A stretch of 48,943 nt of DNA, from NCBI GenBank assembly GCA_023382755.1, contig JAHDWR010000001.1, positions 65,381 to 114,323 on the forward strand, written 5' to 3'. The stretch's first letter is position 1. Each line of letters opens with the position of its first letter. Source of the stretch: Dehalococcoidia bacterium (GTDB taxonomy: Bacteria; Chloroflexota; Dehalococcoidia; Tepidiformales; Tepidiformaceae). This document shows, piece after piece, positions 12,062-35,015 of this stretch. A model generated the notes under the pieces. It was not told where the DNA came from. It ran no database searches and was given only the letters and a program-made list of their open reading frames with translations. Position numbers and translations under genes: made by a program.

Positions 12062-13015
12062 TTACGCCTGCATGTTCGTCCCGTCCGGACAGAACCAGTA
12101 CGACTGCCAGTCGGAGAGACCGGCTACGGCCACGAACATCATCGCCAAGACCAGCGATAGCCCGAGGACGAGCGCAGCTCGTTCGCTGGTGCCGACGACA
12201 AGGCCGTGGTCCCGGACCCGGCGCAGCGCCCGTTCCCGTTCGCTGGTGAGTCCGCACGAGCCTGGAACAGGCGACAGCGCATCGATCTTGAAGAGCGCCC
12301 GGAGCAGGGGCCGGTCGTCACCCATGCCTGCTGCCGCCACCGCGTCGGCCCGCGACTCACGCGCCGCCCGGTGGGCGAGGCCGAGCCATGATGTACGGGG
12401 GAACCAGAGGGACCAAACGGCAAGCTCGACGAGCCAACAACGTAGCGGATCTCGCCGCCGCACATGGGCCAGCTCGTGCAAAAGCGTGGCTTCCAGCTCC
12501 GGTCCCGAGACCCGGCGGAGGAGCGCCGGGCTGACGTAGATGTGAGGCCGAAGGAGCCCGGCCGTAAAGGCTGAGGCCGCGTCCATAGGCAGCAGGCGAA
12601 CCGTGACCGCCTTGCCCCCGGCGCAAAGCTCGACCGCCTGAGATTGACTGGCGAGGATCGCCGCCTGGCGGCGGACGCGGGCCAGATCTCGCGCCCCCCG
12701 CAAGATCAGCCGCGAAAGCACGACCGTCGCCCAACTCGTGAGCAGCGCGACCGCTGCGTAGCCGACGAGCACGAACGGCCCCCGCCGTACACCCTGCTGG
12801 CAAGCCTCGAGCAAGCGGTTGACGGGGTGCGCGTCGGGGGTCAACACGAAGGCGAGCCAGAGAGGCACCACCAGCGACGCGACCGCTGCCAGCACGCCGG
12901 CGACCGCGCCGAACTCGATGAGATGCCCGTCGTGGCGCCAGAATCGCCGGCCCGATTCGGTCCACGACCATAACCGCAGGCCGATAGTGCTCACAGGGTG
13001 ACTGCTACTCTCCAT
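12062..13015 (-). CDS. M56 family (BlaR1/MecR1-like) membrane metallopeptidase, copy 1
   Basis: About 317 residues: several N-terminal helices, a cytoplasmic or membrane-facing zinc protease domain with HELAHVRRRD (near residue 180), and a further helix near the C-terminus. There is no C-terminal penicillin-binding sensor domain, so it is not a full BlaR1. In the family the protease cleaves the partner BlaI repressor once activated. The ATG at 13015 overlaps the blaI-like stop by 11 bases; the frame is open further but inside blaI. The signal it senses is unknown; the operon content (TlpA, CcdA) suggests redox or metal. Confidence 0.85.
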   Translation of the reverse strand: MESSSHPVSTIGLRLWSWTESGRRFWRHDGHLIEFGAVAGVLAAVASLVVPLWLAFVLTPDAHPVNRLLEACQQGVRRGPFVLVGYAAVALLTSWATVVLSRLILRGARDLARVRRQAAILASQSQAVELCAGGKAVTVRLLPMDAASAFTAGLLRPHIYVSPALLRRVSGPELEATLLHELAHVRRRDPLRCWLVELAVWSLWFPRTSWLGLAHRAARESRADAVAAAGMGDDRPLLRALFKIDALSPVPGSCGLTSERERALRRVRDHGLVVGTSERAALVLGLSLVLAMMFVAVAGLSDWQSYWFCPDGTNMQA

Positions 13016-13430
13016 CGTCGCCTGACCCCGCGTCATTGTCCTCCGCAGCCGCCGCATCGTCTTCCAGGAGTCGCGCCACGACCGCGCGCTGCTCCGGAGA
13101 GAGGTGCCGGACGAACCCCAGCAACGCCGGCGCGCCGTATCTTTCCAGCGCTTCGCGGAACGCCCGTCCGCCAAGCTCGCCTGCTATTTCTGCCTCGTCG
13201 CGCGCCTCGTAGAGGTAAGCCTTCCCCTGGCGCCGCCGGAGGAAGTAACCCTTCTCGAAGAGCCTGGTCATGACGGTCATCACTGTGGTGTACGCCAACG
13301 GCCGCCCTGCGGCCACAAGCCCCTCCGCCACATCCGCAACGCTTGCGCGCCTGCTGGCCCGGACCGCGAGGAACACCTGGCGTTCGAGGTCAGCGAGGGA
13401 ATCGCCGATGTCGGGTCGGTTCGTCGTCAT
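13005..13430 (-). CDS. BlaI/MecI/CopY family repressor, copy 1
   Basis: 141 residues. The winged helix is recognisable (VADVAEGLVAAGRPLAYTTVMTVMTRLFEKGYFLRRRQGKAYLYEA), followed by a dimerisation region and an acidic tail. BlaI-type dimers bind palindromes and are inactivated by cleavage by an M56 protease, here encoded directly downstream. There is no beta-lactamase or PBP gene in the window. The likely operator is the CTAC/GTAG palindrome at 16245-16263 in front of this operon, and similar palindromes occur elsewhere (24427, 25770, 26454, 34991). Which of the two BlaI paralogues uses which site cannot be told from sequence. Confidence 0.9.
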   Translation of the reverse strand: MTTNRPDIGDSLADLERQVFLAVRASRRASVADVAEGLVAAGRPLAYTTVMTVMTRLFEKGYFLRRRQGKAYLYEARDEAEIAGELGGRAFREALERYGAPALLGFVRHLSPEQRAVVARLLEDDAAAAEDNDAGSGDDGE

Positions 13431-13432
13431 CG

Positions 13433-14158
13433 TCAGAGCACCAGGTTGAAGGCTTGAAAGTAGCGGAAGATATCGATCAGTGCCCCAGTGAAGATCAGGA
13501 TACCCATCCCGACCATGACCGTCCCGGAGGTCCGCTCGACGGCAACGTAGTGCCTCGCCAGGAACCCTCGCAACGCGGCCAGGCGCTCGAAGGCGAGGGC
13601 AGCGCCGATGTGAGGCACAGCCATACCCAGCGCGAACGCCGAGAGGAGCGCGACCCCGAGCCAGAAGTCCCCGAAGACGACCACGCTGGTGAGGATCGCT
13701 CCGAGCACCGGCCCGATGCAGGGCGTCCAGGCGATCGAATAGGTAGCGCCGACCAGGAACGACCGTGCGTAACCGGGAGTCGCGCTCTGGCCGAGGCGCA
13801 ACTCGAACGAACGCTGGAGCGCCGGCACACGCACCACCCCCATCTGGACGAGGCCGAAGGCGATGACGATCGTCCCGCCAACCTTGAACAGCTGCGAGCG
13901 CATGTCGGTGAGGGCGTAGCCAGCGAAGCTGAGCCCGGCGCCGATTGCCACGAACACCAGCGAGAAGCCGATCACGTAGACCAGCGCGTGCGTCAGGCGG
14001 ACCCGGCGCGAGGCCGAGTGGGCCTCGACCCCGGCAAGGTGGGCAAGGAAGGCGGGCGTCATCGCGAGGCAGCAGGGCGAGAGGGTGTTCACAGCGCCGG
14101 CCACGAAGGCGAGCGTGAGCCCCGGGGCCGCGCGGTCGAAGCCGAGGATCCAGTCCAT
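13433..14158 (-). CDS. ccdA: CcdA-type cytochrome c biogenesis / thiol reductant transporter
   Basis: 241 residues, six helices, with the two membrane cysteines of CcdA in the expected contexts: LSPCCLAMTPAFLAHL and SIAWTPCIGPVLGAIL. CcdA passes electrons from cytoplasmic thioredoxin to extracellular thiol proteins such as ResA/TlpA. The gene for such a protein precedes it, and the start at 14158 overlaps that gene's stop (TGATG). Together they form a thiol-reducing pair in the BlaI-controlled operon. Confidence 0.92.
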   Translation of the reverse strand: MDWILGFDRAAPGLTLAFVAGAVNTLSPCCLAMTPAFLAHLAGVEAHSASRRVRLTHALVYVIGFSLVFVAIGAGLSFAGYALTDMRSQLFKVGGTIVIAFGLVQMGVVRVPALQRSFELRLGQSATPGYARSFLVGATYSIAWTPCIGPVLGAILTSVVVFGDFWLGVALLSAFALGMAVPHIGAALAFERLAALRGFLARHYVAVERTSGTVMVGMGILIFTGALIDIFRYFQAFNLVL

Positions 14159-14880
14159 CAGCGGCAATCCTCCGGCTCGTGGCCGCCGGCCTGGATCCCC
14201 GCGACGATACAGCGCGCGACCTCAGGCTTGAGCTGGCCTATCCGATGGTCGCGGATGACCCCCTGCTCATCAAGAAAGAAGGTCTCGGGCAGGCCCCGCA
14301 GCTTGTACGAACCGGTGACCTCACCATAGGTGTCGAGCGGCGTCGGGTAGTTTACGGAGAAGTTGGTCGCAAACTCCTGGGCCACGTCAGGCGGCTCTGA
14401 GTAGTTCACCCCGATTACTTGCGCGGTGTCGCCCCACTCGGTTTGCAGCGCGACCAGGTCTGGCGTCTCCTTGCGGCAGGGGATGCACCAGGTCGCCCAG
14501 AAGTTGATGAGGACGGGCCGGCCCCGGAAGTCCTCCAACCGGATCATCTGGCCGCCGGGATCCAGGAGCTGGAAGCCCGGCGCAGGCTCGCCAACCTTCG
14601 GCCTCCCCTCTCCTGTAGACCCGAGGTCGAGCGTGGAGTACTCGCCGCCGATCGCGGGTGTGCTCGTCGCGTTGCGTTCGCGGAGCAACTGGACGAGGAC
14701 GATGCCCGCAACGACCGCGGCAATGGCGAGGACCGGGATCGCGAGGTCCACCACGGCATTCCTGCCGCTGCGCCTTCGAGCGTACCGCGGGGGGGTCGGT
14801 TCGGGCTCGTCCGTCTGGACGGTTTCGTCGTGCTCCGGATCCACCTCTGCGTTACCCCGCACCCCACGTTGCTCCACCAT
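14158..14880 (-). CDS. TlpA/ResA-type membrane-anchored thioredoxin
   Basis: 240 residues: a polar acidic N-terminus, one anchor helix (VVDLAIPVLAIAAVVAGIVLV), then an AhpC/TSA-like redoxin domain with VGEPAPGFQLLD, the active site NFWATWCIPCRKETPDL and the cis-Pro region RGLPETFFLDEQG. It should reduce apocytochrome c or copper-site cysteines using electrons from CcdA. Start at the ATG at 14880, overlapping the preceding gene by 29 bases; an ATG at 14910 is also in frame. Other TlpA-like proteins here: 22131 and 39490. Confidence 0.9.
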   Translation of the reverse strand: MVEQRGVRGNAEVDPEHDETVQTDEPEPTPPRYARRRSGRNAVVDLAIPVLAIAAVVAGIVLVQLLRERNATSTPAIGGEYSTLDLGSTGEGRPKVGEPAPGFQLLDPGGQMIRLEDFRGRPVLINFWATWCIPCRKETPDLVALQTEWGDTAQVIGVNYSEPPDVAQEFATNFSVNYPTPLDTYGEVTGSYKLRGLPETFFLDEQGVIRDHRIGQLKPEVARCIVAGIQAGGHEPEDCR

Positions 14881-15865
14881 CCCTGCTGCGGAAGACGTGA
14901 CCGGCGCCATCGTCCTGGACGGCGACGACGGTGACGTCCAGCCAGTCTGCCGGGTTCACCGCAGATACCAGCACCTGACCGCCGCCGGGGACCGTCTGGG
15001 CCCGCCAGGTCTTGCCACCGTCTATCGACGCGAACAGCCCGCTCTCGGTGCCCGCATAGACGATCTTCGGGTCGGTGGCAGACGCAGCCACGGTAAGCAC
15101 CGCTCCGGAGAGCTGTCCTGTGCCTTTGAACGTCGCGCCCGCGTCGTCGCTACGGAGCACACCGCCCTGCACGCTCGCGATGTACACGACCTCGCCGATC
15201 GATGCGCTGACCTGGATAACATCCGCCGGATACGCACCTGTCCCGGCCTTTGACCACGTTTTGCCGCCGTCCTCGCTGCGGTAGAAACCGTAGCGGACGA
15301 CGTTCGCGTACAGGCGGCCCGCCTTGTCCGGCGCTACCGCCATGCCGTGGATGTCGCGGCCGGGCAGGTCAGCCTTGAGCGACTTCCAGGTCTGCCCGCC
15401 GTCGGTGCTCCTGAAGAAGGTATCGTGTCCGGCAGCGTAAACGACGTTCGGCTCAGCCCCGGAGATGCCCATCCCCATGGCGTCGTCGGTAGCGCCCGTC
15501 AGCGTGGTCGTTAGCCAGGTCTGGCCCCCATCGATGCTCCGAAGGACACCGCCGTGATGCCCGTAGAGGATCAGGTCCGGGTCAGCCGGGCTCACCGCCA
15601 TCGAGTGGAAGTCGTTCGTCTTAATCTGCGACAGCTCTCCGCCTGCGCCAGAGCCGGATGCCGCGTTACCAGCCGGCTCACCGGGCTCAGACCCACCGCC
15701 CGATGAGGCAAGCCGTATCCCCACGACGATGGCGACCGCCAGGATGGCGACGCCGCCAGCAGCGAGCCAGGGCCACCCGGGGAAGCCCTTCGCTGGCCGC
15801 TGGGCCTTTCGCCGAGCCGCCCTGCGCTCCGCGTTGGTCGCAGTCCGAGCGCGCCGCGTGCTCAC
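14852..15865 (-). CDS. Asp-box (BNR) repeat beta-propeller protein, F510_1955-like
   Basis: 337 residues with a basic N-terminus, one anchor helix and a chain of at least six Asp-box units: SIDGGQTW, STDGGQTW, SEDGGKTW, SDDAGATF, SIDGGKTW and SRDGGATW, typical of sialidase/sortilin-like propellers. HSMAVSPADPDLILYGHHGG resembles the family called F510_1955 glycosylhydrolase, though no glycosidase activity can be assigned from the repeats alone. The GTG start overlaps the DUF2933 stop by 4 bases. Extracellular and membrane-tethered; job in this redox operon unknown. Confidence 0.82.
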   Translation of the reverse strand: MSTRRARTATNAERRAARRKAQRPAKGFPGWPWLAAGGVAILAVAIVVGIRLASSGGGSEPGEPAGNAASGSGAGGELSQIKTNDFHSMAVSPADPDLILYGHHGGVLRSIDGGQTWLTTTLTGATDDAMGMGISGAEPNVVYAAGHDTFFRSTDGGQTWKSLKADLPGRDIHGMAVAPDKAGRLYANVVRYGFYRSEDGGKTWSKAGTGAYPADVIQVSASIGEVVYIASVQGGVLRSDDAGATFKGTGQLSGAVLTVAASATDPKIVYAGTESGLFASIDGGKTWRAQTVPGGGQVLVSAVNPADWLDVTVVAVQDDGAGHVFRSRDGGATWGAG

Positions 15866-16224
15866 GAGGCGATCCGGGAAGCTGATGGGGAGGCCGTGGA
15901 GGCTAGCGGCTCCTCGGTGTTAGCGACGGTGCTCGCGGAGAGCTCCAGCTCGAGCCGCTGCCCCTCGTCCCTGAGCGCGGCGAGGCGAGCCCGCTTGGCC
16001 TCAATGGAGGCATCGCCCTCGGTGTGGCGGCATGACTCACCGCCGCCGCTATGGCCTCGCATCGCGAACATCATCACCACCATCGAGAGCGGGCAGGCCG
16101 CCAGCAGGAGCAGAGGCAGCACGGCGAGCGCTGCACTGGGGGCAATGAGGAGAATGCCCACCGCGGCGACGCCGAGGCCGACAAGTACCTTCCAGTTGAA
16201 ACACATCCCCAGTGCCGACTTCAT
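15862..16224 (-). CDS. DUF2933-like small membrane protein with coiled tail
   Basis: 120 residues. It opens with CFNWKVLVGLGVAAVGILL, followed by LPLLLLAACPLSMVVMMF: two helices with the Cys positions of the DUF2933 family, which is often found with copper-resistance genes. A short His/Cys segment (GHSGGGESCRH) and a charged helical tail follow (IEAKRARLAALRDEGQRLE). First gene of the six-gene BlaI/M56 operon, with a good ribosome site (GGAGGT) and the palindromic promoter 17-45 bases upstream. Confidence 0.82.
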   Translation of the reverse strand: MKSALGMCFNWKVLVGLGVAAVGILLIAPSAALAVLPLLLLAACPLSMVVMMFAMRGHSGGGESCRHTEGDASIEAKRARLAALRDEGQRLELELSASTVANTEEPLASTASPSASRIAS

Positions 16225-16240
16225 CGGGGGACCTCCGGGC

Positions 16241-16269
16241 GTTATACTACGGTCACGGTAGTAATTGAG
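16241..16269 (-). promoter_or_regulatory. Promoter with CTAC/GTAG palindrome for the DUF2933-BlaI-M56 operon
   Basis: The perfect palindrome TACTAC-GGTCACG-GTAGTA (16245-16263) fills the gap between a -10 TATAAC (16246-16241) and a weak -35 CTCAAT on the minus strand. A repressor bound here would block the polymerase. It resembles BlaI/MecI-type operators, and the operon encodes a BlaI protein, which points to autoregulation. The divergent cupredoxin-SCO operon starts 215 bases to the right and might share it. Confidence 0.7.
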
Positions 16270-16477
16270 TCCGCCTGCGTCAAGGCGCTCGGGATAGGGC
16301 CAGGGCGACGGCTTGGTGACCGCCGCCCGGAGGTCGTGGAAGGATGGCTGCCAATGGAGTCACGAATTGTTCGGGTTGCAATGCCACCCGCCGTCGTGAG
16401 AGCGGAGGTTCGCCGCGACTGGCGGTAGCGGCGCCAAAGACCTTGGTGCCCAGCCGCCTGGAAGGAGGCCAACAAAC

Positions 16478-16945
16478 GTGCAAGGCGCAGGACAACAGCG
16501 AGCACTCGTCAAGCTCCTTGGTGGCGCGGCCCTCGGTCTGCTCCTCGCGGTCCCGACTATGGGCGTGCTCCTAACAGCGGCGTGGGCTGGCAGCGGCTGT
16601 GGCGACGGCATGCCCATGATGATGAACAAGGAGGAGATGCGCGGGATGATGGGCGGAGGCCGCGACTCTTCGAACGACGACGCCGTGCGGGGGTCAGCTG
16701 TCGAGACGGTGGTTATCGAGGACTTCGCCTTCTCGCCGGGCAATCTCCATGTGCCGATGGGGACAAGCGTCACCTGGATCAACCGCGACGCAGCACTGCA
16801 CTCAGCGACCGATTCGGACGGCTCGTGGGATTCGGGCGTTCTCTCAGATGGCGAACGCGCGTCCCTGGTGTTCGACACGCGGGGCACGGTTGACTACTTC
16901 TGCACGCTGCACCCGAACATGAAGGCCCGGCTGGTGGTCGAGTGA
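16478..16945 (+). CDS. Exported cupredoxin with Met-rich N-terminal segment
   Basis: 155 residues from a GTG with a strong ribosome site (AAGGAGG). A signal segment ends near WAGSGCGDG; then a Met-rich stretch (MPMMMNKEEMRGMMGGG), as in Cu(I)-binding proteins, and a plastocyanin-like domain (VVIEDFAFSPGNLHVPMG) with His in ALHSATDS and Cys, His and Met in YFCTLHPNM. Likely a copper carrier outside the cell. It leads a plus-strand operon with the second SCO and its membrane partner, divergent from the BlaI operon. Confidence 0.9.
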   Translation: MQGAGQQRALVKLLGGAALGLLLAVPTMGVLLTAAWAGSGCGDGMPMMMNKEEMRGMMGGGRDSSNDDAVRGSAVETVVIEDFAFSPGNLHVPMGTSVTWINRDAALHSATDSDGSWDSGVLSDGERASLVFDTRGTVDYFCTLHPNMKARLVVE

Positions 16946-17028
16946 TCGCTGGCAACGGTGGCCGGCCGGGCCACAGTCCCACAGCATTCGCGCGCTTCGC
17001 CCGGTGAGCGCGCTCCGGAGGGAGGAGT

Positions 17029-17682
17029 ATGACTGAAAACAAGCTCACGGGGCTACTGGTCCTCTTCGCCTCTTTCTCGTTGCTGGCCCTGTCGGCCTGT
17101 ACGGGAGACGACGATGCTGGAACCGAGCTCATCCTGTCAGGCTCGTCTGAGTTCAGAGGTACCCGCCAGCTACCTCCGTTGGCGCTTCCCGATGTCACAC
17201 TCACCGACACCGATGGCCAACCCTATCGACTCCGCGAACAGGCAGCGGGGAAGGTCACGCTGCTCTACCTGGGCTACACCCATTGCCCCGACGTGTGCCC
17301 CACGCACATGGCTCAGATCGCCCGCGCCTTGGAGGAGGTGTCGCCGGAGACGGCCTCCGAGGTGCTTGTCGTCTTCGTGACGACCGATCCCGAACGCGAC
17401 ACGCCGGCTGCCCTGCGTGAGTGGCTCGATAACTTCGATCCGAGCTTCGTCGGCCTTACCGGCAATCAGGAGCAACTCGACGCCGTACACGCCGCGCTCA
17501 ACGCCAATCCTGCGGAGAAGACTCACCATGCTGGAGGCGGCTACGAGGTCGAGCACTCAGCCTACGTGTATGCGTTCACGCCCGAGCGACAAGACGCTCG
17601 GCTCGTCTATCCGTCCGCAACGACGTGGGAGGACTACGCCGCGGACTTCAGGGCTCTGATCGAGAAGGGGAGGCGACCCTGA
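17029..17682 (+). CDS. SCO1/SenC family copper chaperone lipoprotein, copy 2
   Basis: 217 residues; signal with lipobox ALSACTGD; copper motif CPDVC (about residues 86-90) in LGYTHCPDVCPTHMAQI and the distal His in VEHSAYVYAF. Strong ribosome site GGAGGAG. Much of it matches the first SCO at 7297 (both have FRG.RQLPPLE/ALPDVTLTDTD and YPA/S..WEDYAAD), so the two derive from one duplication or a shared transferred cassette. The next gene, starting on its stop codon (TGATG), is the stand-alone relative of the PCuAC-fused membrane domain. Confidence 0.95.
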   Translation: MTENKLTGLLVLFASFSLLALSACTGDDDAGTELILSGSSEFRGTRQLPPLALPDVTLTDTDGQPYRLREQAAGKVTLLYLGYTHCPDVCPTHMAQIARALEEVSPETASEVLVVFVTTDPERDTPAALREWLDNFDPSFVGLTGNQEQLDAVHAALNANPAEKTHHAGGGYEVEHSAYVYAFTPERQDARLVYPSATTWEDYAADFRALIEKGRRP

Positions 17683-18260
17683 TGACCGCCGCGATCTGGC
17701 CGACGAGCCAGCTTGCCGCTCCACTCACACTGCGCGCGGTTGTCGTGACCGCCTGTGCGCTCCTCTCGACCGGGGCGGCGGTAATTCATTTCGCGGTCCT
17801 CGGCGACCACTGGGACGAATGGTGGGGGTACGGGCTCTTCTTCGGCCTCGCCGCCTGGCTCCAACTCGCCTGGGCGGCTGCGATCGTCGCGCGCCCATCA
17901 TCGAAGCTCATGATCGCCGGAGCGGTTGGCAGCTTCGCTATCGCCGTTCTCTGGCTGGTCACCCGGACCGGCGGCGTCCCCGCCGGACCCGCGTTTGGCG
18001 AGAGAGAGACTGCTGCCTTCCCCGATGTGCTGGCGTCAGTGTTCGAGGTGCTGCTCGGGTTAAGCGCCTTCGCCGTCGTGGCCGCCCCTGCGACGAAGCT
18101 GACTCTGGGGCGCTGGGTTGGAGGTGTCGCCATCGTGGCGCTGGCAGCGGGCGTCGTGGCCCTGACCACCGTCGGCCTCATCGCCGCGTCGTCTGGTGGC
18201 GGCCACGGCGAGGAGGAAAGCACCGGGACCACTCACGAACACGGAGCAGACCAGCCCTGA
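17682..18260 (+). CDS. Multi-helix membrane protein, stand-alone partner of SCO
   Basis: 192 residues, five helices, His-rich tail (GGHGEEESTGTTHEHG). It lines up with the first half of the protein at 6305-7300 (ALLSTGAAVIHFAVLGDH, EWWGYGLFFGLAAWLQLAW), where a PCuAC domain follows; here the PCuAC part is absent and only the His-rich linker is left. Start at the ATG at 17682, overlapping the SCO stop. Being next to SCO twice, it is probably a membrane part of the copper-delivery system. I know no characterised member. The following 161 bases (18261-18421), before merB arrives from the other strand, hold nothing I recognise. Confidence 0.8.
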   Translation: MTAAIWPTSQLAAPLTLRAVVVTACALLSTGAAVIHFAVLGDHWDEWWGYGLFFGLAAWLQLAWAAAIVARPSSKLMIAGAVGSFAIAVLWLVTRTGGVPAGPAFGERETAAFPDVLASVFEVLLGLSAFAVVAAPATKLTLGRWVGGVAIVALAAGVVALTTVGLIAASSGGGHGEEESTGTTHEHGADQP

Positions 18261-18421
18261 AGCTTGGGCGCCTCCCCGATGCCGTGACCTGGCTCCGCGA
18301 CCCACGGCGGGACTCGACCTTCGGCAGCGAGCTCACTTCGAGCGTCCCACAGGCTGACGCCGCCACCAGGGCGCCGGCGCGCGTCTTCTTCCGTACTTGC
18401 CTTCGAGCGCAGCGTCTCTGC

Positions 18422-19531: not shown

Positions 19532-19541
19532 GTTCTCCTCG

Positions 19542-20933: not shown

Positions 20934-20949
20934 TCTGTGGTTCCTTTCC

Positions 20950-24254: not shown

Positions 24255-24426
24255 CTGGTTAACCCAGTGCTATTTTCCGAAACCGCAACCACGCCGCGGG
24301 TGCCTGTCTCCGTTCGCGAATCGCGCCGCTCTCTCCGAAAGCCCGGGCTGCAAGCCTTGAGAGCCCGTGGCCTGGGCCTTCACACGCGGCGTCCTTTCGC
24401 CGGGTCGCGACGCTAAGACGGGTGCC

Positions 24427-24453
24427 ACTACTCAACGTAGTAGGTGATACGAT
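24427..24453 (+). promoter_or_regulatory. Promoter with CTAC/GTAG palindrome before the second blaI-like gene
   Basis: CTACT-CAACGT-AGTAG (24428-24443) is a perfect palindrome. A -10 TACGAT (24448-24453) ends 7 bases before the ATG at 24461, giving a leaderless transcript, and the palindrome would lie between the -35 and -10 positions. The CTAC-to-GTAG gap is 5 bases, shorter than the 7-8 of the other sites, so it may be bound differently. Confidence 0.6.
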
Positions 24454-24460: not shown

Positions 24461-24841
24461 ATGGCCATCCGACGCAATTCGCTGGGCCTCGGTGAGCTGG
24501 AGGGCCTCGTCCTCGAGCGGTTGTGGGAGGAGGGCGAGTTGGCGACACCCGCCGTGCACGAGGCTGTCGGGCGGCCTCGTGGCCTGGCCTACACCACAGT
24601 CCTTACCGTCCTCCAACGGCTGCTCAAGAAGGGCCTCGTCGTGCGCCGTGAGCAAGGGAAGAGCCACAGCTACGCCCCGGCTTTGACCCGGGCCGAGTTC
24701 GCCCGGCGCCGGGGCATCGAACTGGCAGGCCTGGTGACCGAGCTCTCAACTGAAGGGTTGGCGGCCTTCCTGACCGAGGCACACCGCCTGGACCCCCAGG
24801 TGCTCGACGCCTTCAGGCAGCAACTCGAGGACGCAGAGTAG
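24461..24841 (+). CDS. BlaI/MecI/CopY family repressor, copy 2
   Basis: 126 residues: GLGELEGLVLERLWEEGELATPAVHEAVGRPRGLAYTTVLTVLQRLLKKGLVVRREQGKSHSYAP is the complete winged helix of the family. Start at the ATG at 24461, supported by the -10 hexamer just upstream; an ATG is in frame at 24422 but lies upstream of that promoter. The stop overlaps the start of the M56 gene by one base. With its partner it forms a second repressor/protease pair, homologous to 13005/12062. Confidence 0.9.
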   Translation: MAIRRNSLGLGELEGLVLERLWEEGELATPAVHEAVGRPRGLAYTTVLTVLQRLLKKGLVVRREQGKSHSYAPALTRAEFARRRGIELAGLVTELSTEGLAAFLTEAHRLDPQVLDAFRQQLEDAE

Positions 24842-25641
24842 TGTCACGCCAGATAGGAAAGATCGCCTTGCTGCTGGTGGCCGCCAGCGTCGGTCCCTTG
24901 TTGGCGGTCCACGCCGCGCTGGTGTACTTCGGCCTCGCACCGGGTAGAGGCATCCACATGGAGCTCTCGGAACCGGGCGGTCTTGCCTATCCGGTCCTCG
25001 CTGCCTTCTCATTGAGCACCGGCGCGGCGCTCCTCGTGGGGACGTGGCGGGTGTGGCGCGCCTGGCTGGCGAATCGCGAGATCCTGGCCCAGGCTTCATT
25101 GAAACGCTCCGACGGCGAGGAGTACTGGCGCGTGGCGCTGCCGGAGGTGATTGTCTTCTCCACAGGCGTCCGGCGAGCCCGGATCTTTGTCACGACCGGG
25201 GCTGAGGACGCGCTCTCGGAGGATGCGCTCGCGGCCGCCGTGCTGCACGAGCGAGCGCACATCGAGCGAGGCGACCTCGTCCTTCGGCCGGTGCTCGGGG
25301 TCGTAGAGCGAGCGTTGGGGTGGGAGCCCCTGATTCGATCCTGGATCGCGAGTGCGATCCTGCGGTCTGAATGTGAAGCGGACGCGGACGCTGTCAGGGC
25401 CGGTGCCAACCGCCGGGCGCTGTTCGATGCGATCGTGGCGGCCTCTTCGAGCTCCCTGGGCACTGCCTCGCTGGGAGGAGCCCCAGTGATGCCGCGACTC
25501 GAGCGCCTCGCCGACCCGTCGGTGCCCCTGCCGTCCGTCCCTCTGGCCGGGCCGCCCGTGATGTTCTTTTGGGTCCTGGCACCACCGATCGCGGCGCACG
25601 CCGCGCTCTGGATCGGATTGTTTTGCATCGGGCACGTCTGA
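24841..25641 (+). CDS. M56 family (BlaR1-like) membrane metallopeptidase, copy 2
   Basis: 266 residues: two N-terminal helices, a protease domain with HERAHIERGDLVLRP (near residue 136; Arg in place of Leu within the HExxH), a conserved ECEADADAVRAG (third zinc ligand region), and a C-terminal helix. It lacks an extracellular sensor domain. Expected to cut the BlaI-like repressor encoded just upstream when an unknown signal arrives. GTG start. The gene is followed by about 130 gene-free bases and then the next CTAC/GTAG palindrome. Confidence 0.85.
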   Translation: MSRQIGKIALLLVAASVGPLLAVHAALVYFGLAPGRGIHMELSEPGGLAYPVLAAFSLSTGAALLVGTWRVWRAWLANREILAQASLKRSDGEEYWRVALPEVIVFSTGVRRARIFVTTGAEDALSEDALAAAVLHERAHIERGDLVLRPVLGVVERALGWEPLIRSWIASAILRSECEADADAVRAGANRRALFDAIVAASSSSLGTASLGGAPVMPRLERLADPSVPLPSVPLAGPPVMFFWVLAPPIAAHAALWIGLFCIGHV

Positions 25642-25769: not shown

Positions 25770-25793
25770 GTTACTACAATTGGTCGTAGCAAC
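25770..25793 (+). promoter_or_regulatory. CTAC-N8-GTAG palindrome before the cupredoxin gene
   Basis: CTAC (25774-25777), eight bases, GTAG (25786-25789), extended outward by matching GTT and AAC at 25770 and 25793. It lies about 40 bases upstream of the cupredoxin GTG at 25833. Same core as the sites at 26454 and 34993. Confidence 0.6.
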
Positions 25794-25832: not shown

Positions 25833-26267
25833 GTGCCACACAACCAGACGAATCGCCGCATCGCTCGCCGACGCTTCCTGCTCGTATCGCTGGGCATGGC
25901 TTTCGCCGGGGCGCTAACCGCTGCTTGCGGTGACGGGGCCGACGGTGCGCGCTCGTCAAGTGGCGCAGCTGCAACCGGGGAACTCGAGATCGTCGCGGAG
26001 AGGATCGCGTTCGACAAGGACGAGCTCAGCGCTCCCGCGAGTCGGCCCGTGCGGCTCACCTTTCTCAACAAGGACGCAACCCTCCACAACGTCGCGTTCT
26101 ACAGGTCTGAGGATGCGGAGGACGAGATCTTCGTGGGGGAGATCTTCGGCGGTCCCGACAAGACGATCGTCTATGAGTTCGACGCCCCCGCCGAGGCTGG
26201 CGCCTACTTCTTCCGTTGCGACATCCATCCCGCTCAGATGAACGGCACGTTCGTCGTTTCCGAGTGA
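25833..26267 (+). CDS. Exported cupredoxin lipoprotein, Tat-like signal
   Basis: 144 residues from a GTG with AGGAGA six bases upstream. The leader has twin arginines (RRIARRRFLLVSLG) and a lipobox (LTAACGDG). The cupredoxin domain shows LTFLNKDATLHNVAFY (first His) and FFRCDIHPAQMNG (Cys, His, Met). Tat export would fit a protein folded with copper already in place. Preceded by a CTAC/GTAG palindrome, so probably under the BlaI-like control encoded just upstream. Confidence 0.88.
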   Translation: MPHNQTNRRIARRRFLLVSLGMAFAGALTAACGDGADGARSSSGAAATGELEIVAERIAFDKDELSAPASRPVRLTFLNKDATLHNVAFYRSEDAEDEIFVGEIFGGPDKTIVYEFDAPAEAGAYFFRCDIHPAQMNGTFVVSE

Positions 26268-26320
26268 GACGGGCCAGCTTGTGGCCTCCAGGCGACGGGC
26301 ACCCCCCTCGCGAAGCACCG

Positions 26321-26343: not shown

Positions 26344-26424
26344 AGAGGATAGAAGGAGGGGCCGCGAGCTGGACCCGCGAAAGCCGGCACGGAGGCGAGC
26401 GCCCAGGCTGCGTTAAGACTTGCT

Positions 26425-26469
26425 TTGCAGCGCGGGCTTTCATGGCTAGACTACTACGCACAGTCGTAG
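26425..26469 (+). promoter_or_regulatory. Promoter with CTAC-N8-GTAG palindrome before the redox lipoprotein
   Basis: TTGCAG (26425-26430), 16 bases, TAGACT (26447-26452), then CTAC-GCACAGTC-GTAG (26454-26469) over the expected transcription start. A repressor here would block initiation. It stands about 135 bases before the ATG at 26603. Same eight-base gap as two other sites. Confidence 0.6.
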
Positions 26470-26602
26470 ACGCTCCGCGCGGTGCGGAGACCGGCGACGT
26501 CAGCACTCGATGGGGACCGGTGGAGCAAGTCCAACCCGGTCGCCCTGTCCTATGGGGCGCCTCGCGCTTCGCGGCCTCAAGTCGGTTGAGGGAGGTTCGT
26601 CC

Positions 26603-27589
26603 ATGACCCGTCGATTCAACTCACTATCGGCAGCCGTTCTCCTGCTTGCTGCGCTCGCGCTCATCAGCGCCTGCGGCGGGGACGAGACGGCGGGAAGCAA
26701 GAGCCCGGGCGCAACGCCGGCGACCAACGGCGAAGCGGCAGTAGATGCGAGTGCGTCCGCTACGGGGGGTGTTAGCGGCGAAATCGAGGCGTTCGTAACA
26801 AGCTCGGACCTCTCGGTCGGCACACAGCGTTTCGCATTCGTCCTCATCAGAGACGGCGTGCCGGTTAGCGAGGAAGACGTGGCAGTCCGCTTCTTCAAGC
26901 TCAAAGACGAATCGAACCCGCAGATGGTGGGCGAGGGCCAGATTCCCTGGTCTCCACTCGGGATACCGGGGCTCACCGCCAGCACAGCCGAACTCACCGG
27001 CGTCTACTACGCGAACATCGCGTTCGACGAGCCTGGGACTTGGGGCGCCGGCTTCACGATCGGGCCCGAACCTGATCCTGACCGGGAGATAAGGATCAGG
27101 TTCGAAGTCAGGCCCGAGCCAATTACGGTCGGGGTCGGTGGGGTTGCGATCCCGGTCGATAACCCAACGCTCGACGACACTGGTATCAAACAGATCTGCT
27201 CCGCGCCGGAACCCAACGAAGCGTTCCATCAGCTCTCGGTTGCGGAAGCTCTGGCCGGCGGAAAGCCCACCGTGGTCGCGTTCACGACCCCGGCGTTCTG
27301 TGAGTCGCGCACCTGCGGCCCCGACATGGAGCTGGTGAACGCGGCTTATGAGGACTACGGCGATAAGGTGTCCTGGGTCCACGTCGAGCCCTTCGAACTT
27401 GACGAGAACGGGGCTCTCCTCCTCTCGAACGGCAACCGGGTCAACAGCGATGCCGGCAATCAGTGGCAGCTCCCATCGGAGCCATGGATCTTCGTAGTTG
27501 ATGCGACGGGAACGGTCGTCGCTCGCTTCGATGGCCCGGTCACGCTGGAGGAGTTGGAGTTCTTCCTCGACCAGGTGACGGCGCAGTGA
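26603..27589 (+). CDS. Lipoprotein with C-terminal thioredoxin-like domain (CxxxxCGP), copy 2
   Basis: 328 residues, the paralogue of 5334-6308. Lipobox ALISACGG, linker, beta-rich domain (GTQRFAFVLIRDGVPV; YYANIAFDEPGTWGAGFTI), and a thioredoxin-like domain with PAFCESRTCGPDM (Cys at about 233 and 238) and LPSEPWIFVVDATGTVVARFDG. A ribosome site (GGGAGG) precedes the ATG. The two copies share the four-residue gap between the cysteines, so this is a family trait. Likely a redox or copper-site assembly factor; it leads a plus-strand block with P19, DyP-like, CtaG and cydAB genes. Confidence 0.8.
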   Translation: MTRRFNSLSAAVLLLAALALISACGGDETAGSKSPGATPATNGEAAVDASASATGGVSGEIEAFVTSSDLSVGTQRFAFVLIRDGVPVSEEDVAVRFFKLKDESNPQMVGEGQIPWSPLGIPGLTASTAELTGVYYANIAFDEPGTWGAGFTIGPEPDPDREIRIRFEVRPEPITVGVGGVAIPVDNPTLDDTGIKQICSAPEPNEAFHQLSVAEALAGGKPTVVAFTTPAFCESRTCGPDMELVNAAYEDYGDKVSWVHVEPFELDENGALLLSNGNRVNSDAGNQWQLPSEPWIFVVDATGTVVARFDGPVTLEELEFFLDQVTAQ

Positions 27590-27641
27590 CCGGCCGGCTT
27601 GACGTGAAGCCTACGTTCGATACCCCGACGGAAGGTGCGGT

Positions 27642-28244: not shown

Positions 28245-28247
28245 GCC

Positions 28248-29489: not shown

Positions 29490-30037
29490 GCGTCCGAATC
29501 CTGCCCTTCGCCGCCTTACTGGCGTTGGCGGTCGCCGTCTCGGCCAGTGCTCACGGGGGATCGCAGGTGTACAGCGGTGAGGAAGGCCCATACCTCGCCT
29601 GGGCGTTCGCCTCTGAGGTTTCAGGAGTGGATGCAACGTCTGGCAAGGAGGTCGGGTACATCGACTACACGGTGGCGCTGCGCAATACAGCAACGGGTTG
29701 GGCTGAGGACAATGCAACGGTGAGGGTGACGGCGCGGACCGAGAGCGGCAGCATCGGGCCGGTCGACGCGCAGGCTTTTGCCAACCAGTACCAGGCGCTC
29801 TTCCCCTATAACGAGCCCGGCTCGTGGACGATGAAGGTGGACCTGACCGGACCGGCAGGTCCAGCCACTTTCGAACATTCAATGAAGGTCGGCACGGGCG
29901 GCGGGGGAGGACTCGACTGGGGGTGGTTGCTTTTCGGCCTCGCTGCCGTGGCGTTCGCCGCGCAGACGTTCGGCCGATGGTCCTGGCGCCAGCTTCGGCG
30001 GCGCTTATCGACGACGAAGGAACAGCAGGCGCGCTGA
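29486..30037 (+). CDS. Exported single-domain protein anchored by a C-terminal helix (YtkA/CopC-like)
   Basis: 183 residues: signal ending at SASAHGGSQ, so the mature protein starts with His as CopC-like proteins do; a beta-sandwich domain with YTVALRNTATGW and EPGSWTMKVDLTGPAGPATFEHSM; a Gly linker; one helix; basic tail. The GTG overlaps the DyP stop by 4 bases. The domain resembles FixH/YtkA-type modules, which are often near cytochrome oxidase assembly genes. An N-terminal His with a nearby second His (FEHSM) could bind Cu(II). Confidence 0.65.
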   Translation: MSVRILPFAALLALAVAVSASAHGGSQVYSGEEGPYLAWAFASEVSGVDATSGKEVGYIDYTVALRNTATGWAEDNATVRVTARTESGSIGPVDAQAFANQYQALFPYNEPGSWTMKVDLTGPAGPATFEHSMKVGTGGGGGLDWGWLLFGLAAVAFAAQTFGRWSWRQLRRRLSTTKEQQAR

Positions 30038-30137
30038 CGGCTCGACTCGAGTTGAACCGGAAGGACGAGCCGCGGACCGGAAGCCACATACCGAAGGAGG
30101 AGCGCTCATTGCCACACACTGCCACGCGGCGCACACC

Positions 30138-31176
30138 ATGGGCGTGGCCGCGGTAGCTCACACTGATCCGGGATTCGGAACGAGGCCGCCAGGACGGTCT
30201 GGCGACTACGGTTTGCCGACTCCGCGATCACGGCGGGCGCGGCTGCGGCGAAGCGTGCGGCGGACGGGGATCGTGCTGCTGCTGGCGGCCGGGCTTGAGC
30301 TTCTCCCTTCGGTTGCGTCGGCGCACGGTGCGACGGGTGCTCCGGGCATATCGACGCTATGGACCTGGGAGTTCGACCCCTACGCGCTGGTCCCCGGAGT
30401 CGTTGCCGCGACGCTGTACATGCGGCTCGTCGCAAGGGTCAACGCGCTTCATCCCGGCGCCCCGGTGCAGAAGCGCCGGATCGTGTCGTTTTACCTGGGG
30501 CTGGCTACGTTCGTCATTGCCGTCGCCTCGCCGATTGCCGTCTATGACGACGACCTCTTCTCGGCGCACATGATCCAGCACATGTTGCTGGTCTTCGCCG
30601 TGCCGCCGCTCCTGCTGCTATCCGCGCCCATGACGCTCCTCTTGCGCGCAGCCCAACCGCGACTGAGAAGACGATGGCTGCTGCCGCTCCTGCATAGCAC
30701 TGGCCTCAAGATCCTCTTGTTCCCCGTCGTAACGTGGCTCGCTTTCGTGGTCACGCTGTGGGGGACGCACTTCACGCAGATCTATGACGAGGCGGTCCAG
30801 AACCTTTGGCTGCATCGGCTCGAGCACTTCTTCTACGTTGGGACCGCCCTGTTGTTCTGGTGGCCGATCGTGCACGTCGATCCAGGCCCGTGGCGCATCC
30901 CGCATCCGGCGAAAATCATGTACCTGGCGCTAGCCATGGCGCAGCTCATCTTCTTCAGCCTGGTCCTGGTGAGTGTATTCCAGTTACGAGGCGAGTGGAC
31001 GTACGTGGGGACCGTCGGCCCTGACCGACCAGCAGGCTGGAGCAGCGCTCATGTGGATCATGGGCGTCATGGTGTTCATCGGGGGCATACTGCTGGTCGC
31101 CTACGACATGATGCGCACCGAAGAGCGCGTAACGGCGCAACGGGAGCGGCGCGAAGCCGCGCTCCGGAGCGATTGA
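30138..31176 (+). pseudogene. ctaG: Cytochrome oxidase assembly protein CtaG family, copy 2, frameshifted near its C-terminus
   Basis: Residues 1 to about 278 form a good CtaG protein (HMIQHMLLVFAVPPLLLLSAPMTLL; WLHRLEHFFYVGTALLFWWP). At about 30970 the frame turns into non-family sequence, while the next frame (from a GTG at 30973) reads VYSSYEASGRTWG and LTDQQAGAALMWIMGVMVFIGGILL, the missing CtaG end. One extra base would explain it: sequencing error or a real lesion. The start is not certain: ATG at 30138 has no ribosome site, but an ATT 30 bases upstream (30108) follows AAGGAGG. If the frameshift is real the last helix is lost. Confidence 0.8.
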
Positions 31177-31273
31177 GGCGTGTGCCAGCAATGACGCACG
31201 CTGCACGAACGCGAGGCGGCCTCGCGGCAACGGACCGCGGGGGAGGGCGCGGTTCGAATGGGAGGGTAACCGG

Positions 31274-32599
31274 GTGGACGATGTAACCGCCGCGCGGAGC
31301 CTGATGGGCCTCTCGCTCGCCTTCCACATCTCTTTCACGGCGATAGGCATCGGCCTGCCCCTGATGCTGTTCCTCGCGGAGGGACTGGCGTTGCGCACCG
31401 GCGACGAGTCCTATCGCCGGATGGCCCAACGGTGGACGAGAGTCGCCGCGGTCCTCTTTGCGATCGGTGCGGTATCGGGGACGATCCTGTCATTCGAGTT
31501 TGGACTCCTCTGGGCGCCCTTCATGGAGCAGTGGGGCGAGGTCTTCGGATTCCCGTTCGCCTTGGAGGGCTTCGCGTTCTTCACGGAAGCGATTTTCCTC
31601 GCGATCTACATCTTTGGCTGGGATCGCCTTTCGCCCCTGACCCACTGGCTGGTGACGGTGCCGATCATCGTCAGCGCCGCGGCATCGGCGTTCTTTGTCA
31701 TCAGCGCGAACGCGTGGATGAACCAGCCCGACGGCTTCGACCTCGTCGATGGCAAGATTACGAACGTGCGGGTGTGGGACGCGATGTTCAACCGCGCGAT
31801 GCCATACGAGGTGGTCCATGGCACCCTTGCCTCCTACGTGGCCACGGGGTTCGCGCTCGCCGGAATCTATGCCATCGCGATGCTGCGCGGTGACCGATCC
31901 AACTACAACCGCAAGGCCCTGTTGCTCTCGATGGTCGTCGGGGGGATAGCGATCCCTCTGCAGATCGTGAGCGGTGACTTCAGTGCTCGCTTTCTCGCCG
32001 AGTACCAGCCGGCCAAGTTCGCGGCGATGGAGGGCCAGTTCGAGACAGAAGCGGGCGCACCCCTGCGCATCGGCGGGCTTCCGTTTCCGGGTCAAGGCGA
32101 GACGCGCTACGCAATCGAGCTTCCACGCCTGGGTAGCTACCTCGCCTTCCGAGACCTCAACGCCGAGGTCCAGGGATTGAACGACTTCCCCGAAGACGAG
32201 AGACCCGATCCGCGGCTGGTGCACATCCCGTTTCAGATCATGGTCGCGAGTGGTCTCTTTATGCTCTTCGTGGCGATCGTGTTCTTCGTGCTCTGGTTCG
32301 GGCGTCGTTCCAGAGCGACCGCGAACGCAATGCTGGTCCTAATCGCTGCGACGCTCCCACTTGGCTTCGTCGCCATTGAGATGGGGTGGTTCGTGACCGA
32401 GTTCGGCCGCCAGCCGTGGATTGTCTGGCAGGTCATGCGAGTGTCCGAGGCCGCGACCCCGCAAGACGGGGTGGTCCTGTCCCTGCTGCTCCTGTCATTG
32501 GTTTACATCGCCTTAACGGCGGGTCTTCTGCTGCTGCTTCTGGCACCCAGTTTCCTGGGCAGACTGCGCAGGGCCGGGAGGGTGCCTGGTGTCGCTTGA
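31274..32599 (+). CDS. cydA: Cytochrome bd-type quinol oxidase subunit I
   Basis: 441 residues, about nine helices. Conserved positions include the early His in LAFHISFTAIG (haem b595/d region), MPYEVVHGTLASYV (a second haem His) and GWFVTEFGRQPW. The Q-loop region is short, as in the cyanide-insensitive (Cio/bd-II-like) branch. It reduces oxygen to water with quinol electrons without needing copper, unlike the oxidases served by SCO and CtaG in this window. The cydB GTG lies within its last 11 bases. Confidence 0.95.
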   Translation: MDDVTAARSLMGLSLAFHISFTAIGIGLPLMLFLAEGLALRTGDESYRRMAQRWTRVAAVLFAIGAVSGTILSFEFGLLWAPFMEQWGEVFGFPFALEGFAFFTEAIFLAIYIFGWDRLSPLTHWLVTVPIIVSAAASAFFVISANAWMNQPDGFDLVDGKITNVRVWDAMFNRAMPYEVVHGTLASYVATGFALAGIYAIAMLRGDRSNYNRKALLLSMVVGGIAIPLQIVSGDFSARFLAEYQPAKFAAMEGQFETEAGAPLRIGGLPFPGQGETRYAIELPRLGSYLAFRDLNAEVQGLNDFPEDERPDPRLVHIPFQIMVASGLFMLFVAIVFFVLWFGRRSRATANAMLVLIAATLPLGFVAIEMGWFVTEFGRQPWIVWQVMRVSEAATPQDGVVLSLLLLSLVYIALTAGLLLLLLAPSFLGRLRRAGRVPGVA

Positions 32600-33581
32600 C
32601 GCAGCTGCCGCCGGCATCCTTTTCAGCGGGATCGCGGCCTACGCCATCTTTGGCGGCGCTGACTTCGGGGCGGGTTTCTGGGACGCATTCGCGTTCGGCC
32701 CTCGCCGCGACGAAGTTCGCGAGGCGTTCTTCAAGGCGATGGGGCCGGTCTGGGAAACGAACCACGTCTGGCTCATCCTCGTGCTCGTCACCTTGTGGAC
32801 AAACTTCCCGCCTGCCTTCAGCGCCATCTTCATCAACCTCTACCTGCCGCTAACGGTGGCTCTGGTCGGGGTCGTGTTTCGCGGCGCCGCCTTCGCCTTC
32901 CGCCACTATGGGTACGAGGCCGGCGCTGAGCTGCCTGCGACCGGTCTGATTTTCTCGGTGGCGAGCATCGTGACGCCGTTCGCGATGGGCGTCGCCGTCG
33001 GCGCCGTGGCCGGCGGACACATCGAGCCGGACCGAACGCCTGGCATGTTCGAAGCCTGGCTGCGGCCCTTCCCGCTCCTCTGCGGCCTGATAGGTGTTGC
33101 TACTTCGGCGTTTCTCACGCCGTTCTACATGCTAATTCGCTCGGTCGGGGCGCTCCGGTCCGATTTTCGGCGCCTCGGGTTCGCAGCCAGCGTCGCGCTG
33201 GGCTCGCTCACGGCCCTGGCGATTCCAGTGGCTATGTGGGACGCGCCAGAGTTCGCCAATGGACTGCGGGATCCCGTCGCGATGGCGATAATTGCCGCTG
33301 CTGTCACGTTCGGGCTCCTGTCCCTCCTCGTGCTGTGGCTGCGGCGGGATTTCCTTGCGCCGCTGGCGGCAGCGGCAACGGTGGTCGCTCTCCTTGCCGG
33401 CTGGGCCTCCGCGCAATATCCCTTTGTCTTGCTGCCTGCCCTTGAGCTCGAAGAGGCCGCCGCCGGTAGCGCGACGCAGGAAGCGTTCCTCATAGCGATG
33501 GCGGCCGGCGCACTGATCCTCGTACCGTCGCTGCTGTGGCTATTCCGCCTCTTCGCTGGGGCCCGGCCAGAGGAGGTATGA
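32589..33581 (+). CDS. cydB: Cytochrome bd-type quinol oxidase subunit II
   Basis: 330 residues, about eight or nine helices, with family motifs FGGADFGAGFWDAFAFG, PVWETNHVWLILVLV and NFPPAFSAIF. Partner of CydA; the gene starts (GTG at 32589) 11 bases before the cydA stop. No cydC/cydD or cydX-like gene follows. The next 110 bases contain a hairpin (33617) and meet the FliL-like gene from the other strand. Confidence 0.95.
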   Translation: MSLDAAAAGILFSGIAAYAIFGGADFGAGFWDAFAFGPRRDEVREAFFKAMGPVWETNHVWLILVLVTLWTNFPPAFSAIFINLYLPLTVALVGVVFRGAAFAFRHYGYEAGAELPATGLIFSVASIVTPFAMGVAVGAVAGGHIEPDRTPGMFEAWLRPFPLLCGLIGVATSAFLTPFYMLIRSVGALRSDFRRLGFAASVALGSLTALAIPVAMWDAPEFANGLRDPVAMAIIAAAVTFGLLSLLVLWLRRDFLAPLAAAATVVALLAGWASAQYPFVLLPALELEEAAAGSATQEAFLIAMAAGALILVPSLLWLFRLFAGARPEEV

Positions 33582-33616
33582 GGAGCAATCGCTCGGTCTA
33601 TCCCGGTCATGCCATA

Positions 33617-33634
33617 CCAGGCGACAAGGCCTGG
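33617..33634. terminator. Hairpin between convergent cydB and FliL-like genes
   Basis: CCAGGC-GACAAG-GCCTGG: six perfect pairs with a six-base loop, 36 bases past the cydB stop and 61 before the stop of the opposite gene. Suits a bidirectional terminator although no T-run follows. Confidence 0.45.
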
Positions 33635-33694
33635 CCCCGGCCATCAGAAGTGGTGAGAGTGAGCAGGAAACGCCAAGCCAACGGATGATGGGAG

Positions 33695-34180
33695 CTACTG
33701 GGTGATAAATGTAGGGAGATAGACTGCGGTCGCGTCGCGCCCCTCGACGATTCGGTTGACCTCCGCCAGAAACTGCTCCTTAAACGGACCTGCGCTTGCA
33801 GCGGTAATGCCGCCATACTCGGGCGACCCCAGGACGCGATGCAGGGTATCCAGGATATCCGGCATGTAGCGGGCTAGCTCTTGGCGCAGTTCTTCGTTCT
33901 CAGCCGCCATCTGTTCGGCGGTCTTGCCAACGAGGACGTGGGCAGGGTCGTTGAACTCGAGGGCCAGTTCTAATTTCACGTAGCGCTCCCGTCCCTCTCG
34001 TGTTGCGGGCAGGTTCAGTATTCGCTCACCCAGTAGGAGCACCGGGCGGGGCGCGTTGTCGAGTTGTTCGTCCGTGTACGTGGGCGCCGGCTTCGCGTCG
34101 ATGTAATGTGGCTTCACGTAGAACCAAGCTGCGGCTGCAAGCAGGATCGCGATCCCGGCCAGTATTTTGCGATCCCTCAT
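33695..34180 (-). CDS. FliL-like membrane-anchored protein
   Basis: 161 residues: an N-terminal helix (ILAGIAILLAAAAWFYV), then a domain with YVKLELALEFNDPAH, a helical middle and a C-terminal VNRIVEGRDATAVYLPTFITQ, the outline of FliL, a ring-forming stomatin-like protein of the flagellar motor. No other flagellar gene is in the window, so it may be a FliL-domain protein with another role. Good ribosome site (AGGAGGT). It follows the sortase gene by 79 bases and may share its promoter. Confidence 0.7.
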   Translation of the reverse strand: MRDRKILAGIAILLAAAAWFYVKPHYIDAKPAPTYTDEQLDNAPRPVLLLGERILNLPATREGRERYVKLELALEFNDPAHVLVGKTAEQMAAENEELRQELARYMPDILDTLHRVLGSPEYGGITAASAGPFKEQFLAEVNRIVEGRDATAVYLPTFITQ

Positions 34181-34259
34181 GCGGACCTCCTCGCAAGTTG
34201 TCGCCGACGGCTGGGAAGATTATCGGACCGCGTCACGTCGGGGTTGAGGGCCGGGAGCC

Positions 34260-34949
34260 TCACCCGTCCACCCGCTCGGCGATGACGACGTTGCGATCGA
34301 GATACTCGCCCGGACCTGAGCCGTCGGGATTCAGCGCCCGGAAGCGCCCGCCGCACGTAATGAGCGTGATCCATTCGGCGCCCTCCGGCTTCGACGGTGC
34401 CTCGATGAGTTCGCCCATAGGAATGGACGCCACGTCGTATCGTTGCTTGAAAAAGACACGGTAGGTGTAGGTCTGCGCATTCGCCATTTCCACCAGGATC
34501 TCGTCGCCGGCTTCCGCCTTCGCCAGGTTATAGAAGGGACCCTTGATGTTCGGGTAGTAGTCGACGTGGGCAGAGAACACCGCGTTGCCCCCGAAACCTG
34601 GCCGGTCGTAGATCTCGTACCATCCCGTGTTCAGCGGATCCTTTGGCGCGTCCAACTGGTTCGCGCCCGGAACCAGTCCGATCGGCTCGACCGTGCTGTC
34701 GACGCCGAACCGGGGAATCAGCAGGCGCTGGACGGGACCGTCGAACGGAGTCGGCGTAGGCATGACGGTGACCGTCGAGACTGGGCTCGGGACGGCTGAC
34801 CGCGACGGCAGCGCTCGCGGCGACTCCGCAACCGCGAGGAAGTCGGGCGTCTCGACCACCTCTGGCGATCCCCGGCTCATCACGGCGAGCGCGAGGATGC
34901 CAACGCCGAGGACGAGGGATGCAATGGCACCGTAGCGAATCCAAGCCAT
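34260..34949 (-). CDS. Sortase family cysteine transpeptidase
   Basis: 229 residues: signal/anchor helix, Pro/Thr-rich linker (VMPTPTPFDG), then a sortase barrel. Catalytic residues visible: His in VFSAHVDYYP (about 125), Cys in ITLITCGGRF (about 197) and Arg in YLDRNVV (about 218). Sortases cleave cell-wall sorting signals and join the protein to peptidoglycan or to other pilins. No LPxTG-bearing substrate is seen nearby, so substrates lie elsewhere. Start ATG with GGGAG upstream. The promoter contains the CTAC/GTAG palindrome. Confidence 0.9.
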   Translation of the reverse strand: MAWIRYGAIASLVLGVGILALAVMSRGSPEVVETPDFLAVAESPRALPSRSAVPSPVSTVTVMPTPTPFDGPVQRLLIPRFGVDSTVEPIGLVPGANQLDAPKDPLNTGWYEIYDRPGFGGNAVFSAHVDYYPNIKGPFYNLAKAEAGDEILVEMANAQTYTYRVFFKQRYDVASIPMGELIEAPSKPEGAEWITLITCGGRFRALNPDGSGPGEYLDRNVVIAERVDG

Positions 34950-34986
34950 CGGTTGCTCCCAGGCGGCGACTTGAGGACCGCGTCAC

Positions 34987-35015
34987 ATCTTACTACCACG
35001 GGACGTAGTAGCTAA
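34987..35015 (-). promoter_or_regulatory. Promoter with CTAC-N8-GTAG palindrome for the sortase gene
   Basis: On the minus strand TTAGCT (35015-35010) and TAAGAT (34992-34987) are 17 bases apart. TACTAC (34991-34996), eight bases, GTAGTA (35005-35010) fill the spacer exactly, as in the DUF2933/BlaI promoter. The next 230 bases (35016-35245) up to the ccsA stop hold no gene I can support. Confidence 0.6.

Follow-up and report, generated by a model that had tools for sequence, protein, structure and literature searches.

Switches that pair a repressor with a membrane protease are best known from penicillin resistance, and BlaI–M56 gene pairs tend to carry the annotation of penicillin-resistance regulators. 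The nearest known system to the locus described here appears to be PetR/PetP of Synechocystis sp. PCC 6803, a BlaI-family regulator with a BlaR1/M56-type protease in which, according to two reports, copper switches on the breakdown of the regulator by proteolysis (PMC7896320, PMC13421787). The BlaI repressor of Staphylococcus aureus is cleaved at Asn101-Phe102 (PMC9834060), and BlaI of Clostridium thermocellum, with inverted repeats five nucleotides apart (PMC8457756), provides a precedent for the N5 spacing described below. A survey has also reported homologues of BlaR from marine heterotrophs, where their roles are unknown (PMC10141476).

The window, by which we mean the whole stretch of 48,943 nucleotides analysed, comes from the draft genome of a Dehalococcoidia bacterium (contig JAHDWR010000001.1, positions 65,381 to 114,323), for which contamination is estimated at 5% and the gene calls are home-made. 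An earlier note on this DNA had described two BlaI–M56 pairs and no beta-lactamase or penicillin-binding protein (PBP). Pfam supports both pairs (Table 1), and neither a beta-lactamase nor a PBP is present among the window genes scanned. All four BlaI genes of the genome, BlaI1 and BlaI2 of the window included, exceed the cut-off of 22.6 bits for PF03965 (Penicillinase_R), and each is followed by an M56 gene. The PF05569 cut-off is 31 bits; M56_1 lies above it and M56_2, at 28.6 bits, just under it, but M56_2 keeps the HExxH motif, which is invariant in 17 aligned M56 proteins.

Table 1. Genes and predicted operator sites of the window, numbered from its first nucleotide
Feature	Position	Strand	Remarks
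BlaI1 repressor	13005..13430	-	PF03965 57.9 bits
M56_1 membrane metalloprotease, HELAH	12062..13036	-	PF05569 38.8 bits
CcdA/DsbD_TM (BlaI1 operon)	13433-14158	-	
TlpA-type thioredoxin (BlaI1 operon)	14158-14862	-	
BNR-repeat protein (BlaI1 operon)	14852-15865	-	
DUF2933 (BlaI1 operon)	15862-16224	-	
BlaI2 repressor	24461..24841	+	PF03965 76 bits; nearest solved structure M. tuberculosis BlaI 2g9w
M56_2 membrane metalloprotease, HERAH, without sensor domain	24841..25641	+	PF05569 E 1e-6, below cut-off
Cupredoxin-type lipoprotein	25833..26267	+	PF13473
Lipoprotein, weak YtkA-like match	26603..27589	+	Homologue in TlpA-CcdA-sortase-CcsA cluster of G040
Sortase	34260..34949	-	PF04203
CcsA, cytochrome c assembly protein	35246..36127	-	PF01578
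N7 palindrome TACTAC-GGTCACG-GTAGTA, predicted BlaI1 operator	16245..16263		20 bp before DUF2933 start
N5 operator CACTAC-TCAAC-GTAGTA (predicted autoregulation site)	24426..24442		18 bp before blaI2
N5 operator TACTAC-AATTG-GTCGTA (predicted)	25772..25788		Before cupredoxin gene
N5 operator TACTAC-GCACA-GTCGTA (predicted)	26452..26468		Before redox-type lipoprotein gene
N5 operator TACCAC-GGGAC-GTAGTA (predicted)	34994..35010		Before sortase gene
Weaker N5 operator CACGAC-AAGGC-GTAGTA (predicted)	36166..36182		39 bp before ccsA

The proteases differ from BlaR1 and MecR1. M56_2, with 266 aa, stops after its last membrane helix and has no penicillin-sensor domain, and M56_1 scores 19.6 with the blaR1_generic model against a cut-off of 400. 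When M56_2 as modelled by AlphaFold (mean pLDDT 86) is compared with the PDB, the first fold matches are ZMPSTE24/Ste24 and BlaR1, with weak E-values. His24, His253 and Cys262 are conserved in 12–13 of 13 M56_2-class proteins; judged from the order of the helices, and with the protease domain in the cytoplasm, these residues are expected in the outer portion of the first and last membrane helices. On the repressor side, BlaI2, BlaI3 and BlaI4 have a recognition helix almost identical to that of Mycobacterium tuberculosis BlaI (LAYTTV), and a Phe aligned to the cleavage region of S. aureus BlaI is invariant in 15 BlaI proteins. Membership of the CopY/TcrY family (TIGR02698) was rejected: the scores are 25–34 bits against a cut-off of 121.95, and the four BlaI proteins contain no cysteine.

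Other genes of the window also concern metals and respiration. A 987-aa copper P-type ATPase is encoded at 40985-43948 (+), with N-terminal cupredoxin and HMA domains and a C-terminal YHS domain, and no N5 site precedes its gene. An EfeO/Iron_transport-like protein and then a DUF7405 (Dyp-type peroxidase-like) protein are encoded at 27789-29489 (+), followed by CtaG and cytochrome bd genes (30273-33581), forming an iron/respiration block between operator-bearing genes.

Five CTAC...GTAG palindromes had been reported from the window and all are where they were said to be (16247-16261, 24428-24443, 25774-25789, 26454-26469 and 34993-35008). For CTACN{4,9}GTAG, these five matches compare with 0.69 expected, and none of 100 dinucleotide shuffles gave at least five. 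The 8-base gap ascribed to three of them does not stand, as the common register of the sites at 24426, 25772, 26452 and 34994 has a gap of 5. Because the TAC triplet is repeated, a 3-base misregister produces an apparent gap of 8; in a genome-wide search of gaps 3 to 10 most sites have gap 5, and many gap-8 matches overlap gap-5 sites. A gap of 8 was therefore ruled out as the operator spacing. When TACTAC/GTAGTA half-sites are scored at all gaps, the same four sites and a sixth at 36166 have a 5-base gap, usually with one half perfect, and TAC(T/G)AC-N5-GT(A/C)GTA or a near variant is common to five of the six window sites. All six are intergenic and 5' of genes; that before ccsA was absent from the earlier list. 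The palindromes before the sortase and DUF2933 genes had also been thought to fill the spacer between -35 and -10 elements. A consensus scan of 16200-36199 gave no sigma-70-like promoter, and although the -10-like hexamers TATAAC and TAAGAT touch the DUF2933 and sortase palindromes, a convincing -35 element is absent, leaving the case for this promoter geometry weak.

Specificity was judged from whole-genome pattern searches and fetched stretches. The loose word CTAC-N4to9-GTAG occurs at 69 places genome-wide and was dropped as an operator for its lack of specificity. TACTAC-N5-GTAGTA with at most one mismatch occurs 12 times and the corresponding N6 form not at all; with two mismatches allowed, there are 52 N5 sites and 11 N6 sites. 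An equal frequency in genes and in gaps, which by the earlier note's own account would have told against its proposal, is not what was found for the corrected motif: 10 of the 12 sites are intergenic (binomial p 1.8e-8, the sampled DNA being ~89% coding), and all 10 are at three BlaI–M56 loci or near a P-type ATPase. Among 186 control genes, none has an N5 site within 250 bp upstream. Being built from selected sites, the profile of the N5 site exaggerates how strong it is; it plays no part in the tests of gap length, intergenic position and recurrence across genomes. Palindromes of this kind could arise by chance in a GC-rich genome, and the many occurrences of the loose word would fit such an origin, as would the two-mismatch N5 matches, 28 of 38 of which are inside genes. 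The strict form, however, is not only mostly intergenic and absent at N6 but also locus-specific, and it is kept from one genus to another although the spacers differ; we find chance hardly credible as an explanation.

At the other BlaI loci of the genome, C158 and C64, the BlaI–M56 pair and a group of genes for small proteins (a 74-aa membrane protein and Met/His-rich, PCYCGC and SHOCT proteins) are divergently arranged. At C158 there are also genes for a copper P-type ATPase (TIGR01511), a cupredoxin and a His/Met-rich lipoprotein, all preceded by separate N5 sites, and a further N5 site precedes the small-protein set divergent from BlaI3. Apart from the N5 sites found at the divergent operons, near-N7 palindromes precede BlaI3 and BlaI4 (L050:7339, L051:9114); a genome of the same genus (G001) retains the one at BlaI3.

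The corrected operator recurs in relatives, the closest BlaI match being in a Dehalococcoidia MAG (PQAO01000005.1). Of ten His/Met-lipoprotein loci, nine have an N5 site before the lipoprotein gene and the remaining one has an N4 site. N5 sites beside BlaI–M56 also precede genes for Cu-ATPase, cupredoxin, TM74 and cytochrome c in other genera and families. One locus of a genome from another family (G040) brings together ResA, BlaI–M56, TlpA, CcdA, a homologue of the lipoprotein at 26603, sortase and CcsA, and N5 sites occur there at four positions, one of them before sortase-ccsA (L116:14483); in G014 an N5 site precedes ccsA (L231:3796). Sortase was ruled out as a family-wide conserved member, since none of the 29 sortase loci of same-family relatives has a site; its link to the regulon, carried by its own good site and by one distant genome (G040), is a weak one. 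Across 41 genomes, 30 strict sites fall in the 17 genomes with this BlaI and 6 in the 24 without (p 0.006, with relatives treated as independent), compared with p 0.33 for the reversed-pattern control. Several relatives that have this BlaI are without strict sites (G003, G010, G018, G019, G021), and some of these have variants instead, for example TACTAT or N4.

These counts also bear on the possibility that the palindromes are read by another copper or redox regulator, with BlaI merely one of its targets. A MerR-type regulator gene is nearby (23152-23580), and binding of BlaI at these sites is a prediction. Site counts nevertheless track the presence of BlaI across genomes, sites are present at the BlaI loci of families lacking the rest of the window (L092, L113, L117), and CopY, itself a BlaI-family protein, has an operator that the inner core KAC...GTM resembles. 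A reader other than BlaI is in our opinion very unlikely, and the linkage of the operator to BlaI–M56, as far as genome comparison can carry it, is well supported.

The spacing itself seems to drift among N4, N5 and N7. Perfect TACTAC-N4-GTAGTA palindromes, with the spacing of the CopY operator, are found beside BlaI–M56 in two relatives (L108:11354, L108:17008, L115:6999). The N5 operator extends beyond this class, because it is found before BlaI genes of the Actinomycetota Actinomadura and Geodermatophilus (L095:5821, L095:5935, L103:5875). MacB/FtsX-type permease pairs near N5 sites and BlaI–M56 in two relatives (L107, L108) may constitute an additional efflux branch.

The earlier note had assigned one motif to both BlaI paralogues of the window, and here the two part company, BlaI1 going with N7 and BlaI2, BlaI3 and BlaI4 with N5. 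The palindrome at 16245 is of the N7 form and perfect. G021, a genome of another genus, has the orthologous operon (DUF2933-BNR-TlpA-CcdA-BlaI1-M56_1, 63-83% identical) with a perfect N7 palindrome at L222:7675-7693, in which the spacer has changed while the distance to the start codon is again 20 bp; BlaI1 therefore probably reads a 7-bp spacing, different from that of BlaI2, BlaI3 and BlaI4. With at most one mismatch, the genome has one other N7 site, which adjoins BlaI3.

What survives of the original proposal is the BlaI/M56 regulon itself, its operator being nearly confined, once corrected, to BlaI–M56 and copper/redox genes and recurring beside BlaI–M56 in other genera and families; the 8-base gap, the common motif and the promoter geometry are given up. 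The regulon would probably respond to copper, or to a linked redox signal, that activates M56 to cut BlaI. Its predicted targets are the Cu-ATPase, cupredoxins and lipoproteins, with CcsA and sortase likely among them. The assignment of each site to a BlaI, the repression, the cleavage and the copper signal are inferred, and we picture them as follows. The palindromes would be operators of BlaI-type repressors, each encoded beside its own sensor-less M56 metalloprotease. BlaI2, BlaI3 and BlaI4, with their near-identical recognition helix, would bind TAC(T/G)AC-N5-GT(A/C)GTA and repress their own operons together with a few genes that serve copper transport or cytochrome c assembly or encode cupredoxins and copper/redox lipoproteins, and BlaI1 would most likely bind the N7 form before its own operon. 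A rise of copper, or a linked redox change, outside the membrane would activate the M56 partner, which would then cut BlaI in its C-terminal half, before the conserved Phe, and so free the promoters, in a manner resembling the removal of PetR by PetP in Synechocystis.

Copper is preferred as the signal mainly because the C158 neighbourhood is copper-rich, and gene content favours it over a general redox signal. With TlpA, CcdA and CcsA in the target set, a thiol or heme signal would also fit. The same BlaI–M56 regulon might answer to cell-envelope, thiol or respiratory-chain stress, the copper proteins then being members further downstream. Such a signal would suit the BlaI1 branch and the G040 cluster, which consist of TlpA, CcdA, CcsA and ResA genes, and in M. 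tuberculosis the ATP synthase and sigC genes are reportedly under the control of BlaI (PMC8265638, PMC12565901). The most recurrent targets are nevertheless copper proteins (Cu-ATPase, cupredoxin, His/Met-rich lipoprotein, zf_CopZ and DUF326), and sortase is the sole recurring cell-wall enzyme, making a non-copper signal unlikely in our judgement, if still worth bearing in mind. A more elaborate form of the copper-responsive regulon is conceivable but doubtful: four sensor-less BlaI–M56 copper/redox switches would share a spacing code, the N7 paralogue serving a thiol/cytochrome c branch and the N5 paralogues a copper branch, and the M56_2-class protease would itself sense copper at a His24-His253-Cys262 site near the outer face of its first and last membrane helices.

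Several described systems share parts of this arrangement. CopY/CopR of Firmicutes are BlaI-like winged-helix repressors of copper P-ATPase genes, as is proposed for the proteins here, and the inner KAC...GTM core is also that of RNYKACANNYGTMRNY, the operator of CopY (PMC7253601); CopY, however, senses copper through its own CxC motifs without an M56 partner, and its operator spacing is N4 rather than N5 or N7. M. tuberculosis BlaI (Rv1846c) provides the nearest solved structure, 2g9w, with a near-identical recognition helix, and its regulon includes respiratory genes (ATP synthase), but it also regulates blaC, unlike the repressors here. BlaI/BlaR1 and MecI/MecR1 of Staphylococcus likewise combine a repressor with an M56 protease; the Phe of the cleavage region is conserved, and BlaR1 is among the first fold matches of the M56_2 model, albeit with weak E-values. 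The present pairs differ from them in having neither a penicillin-binding sensor domain nor beta-lactamase or PBP targets, and in N5/N7 operators where the staphylococcal ones are of the TACA/TGTA type.

Likened by description, PetR/PetP appears closest, being a BlaI regulator with an adjacent M56 membrane protease, without beta-lactam targets, and having a small regulon around cupredoxin and c-type cytochrome function. Differences are the four paralogous pairs here, the wider set of copper and cytochrome-assembly targets, the two operator spacings and the host, a heterotrophic-type Dehalococcoidia relative; moreover, PetR both represses and activates, whereas repression alone is proposed here. 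For sensor-less BlaI–M56 pairs outside cyanobacteria, there is now a sharp predicted operator with a coherent copper/cytochrome target set, and the conserved membrane His/Cys residues are candidates for metal sensing by the M56 protease. The idea of a copper-activated protease, as in PetRP, thereby becomes testable more widely.
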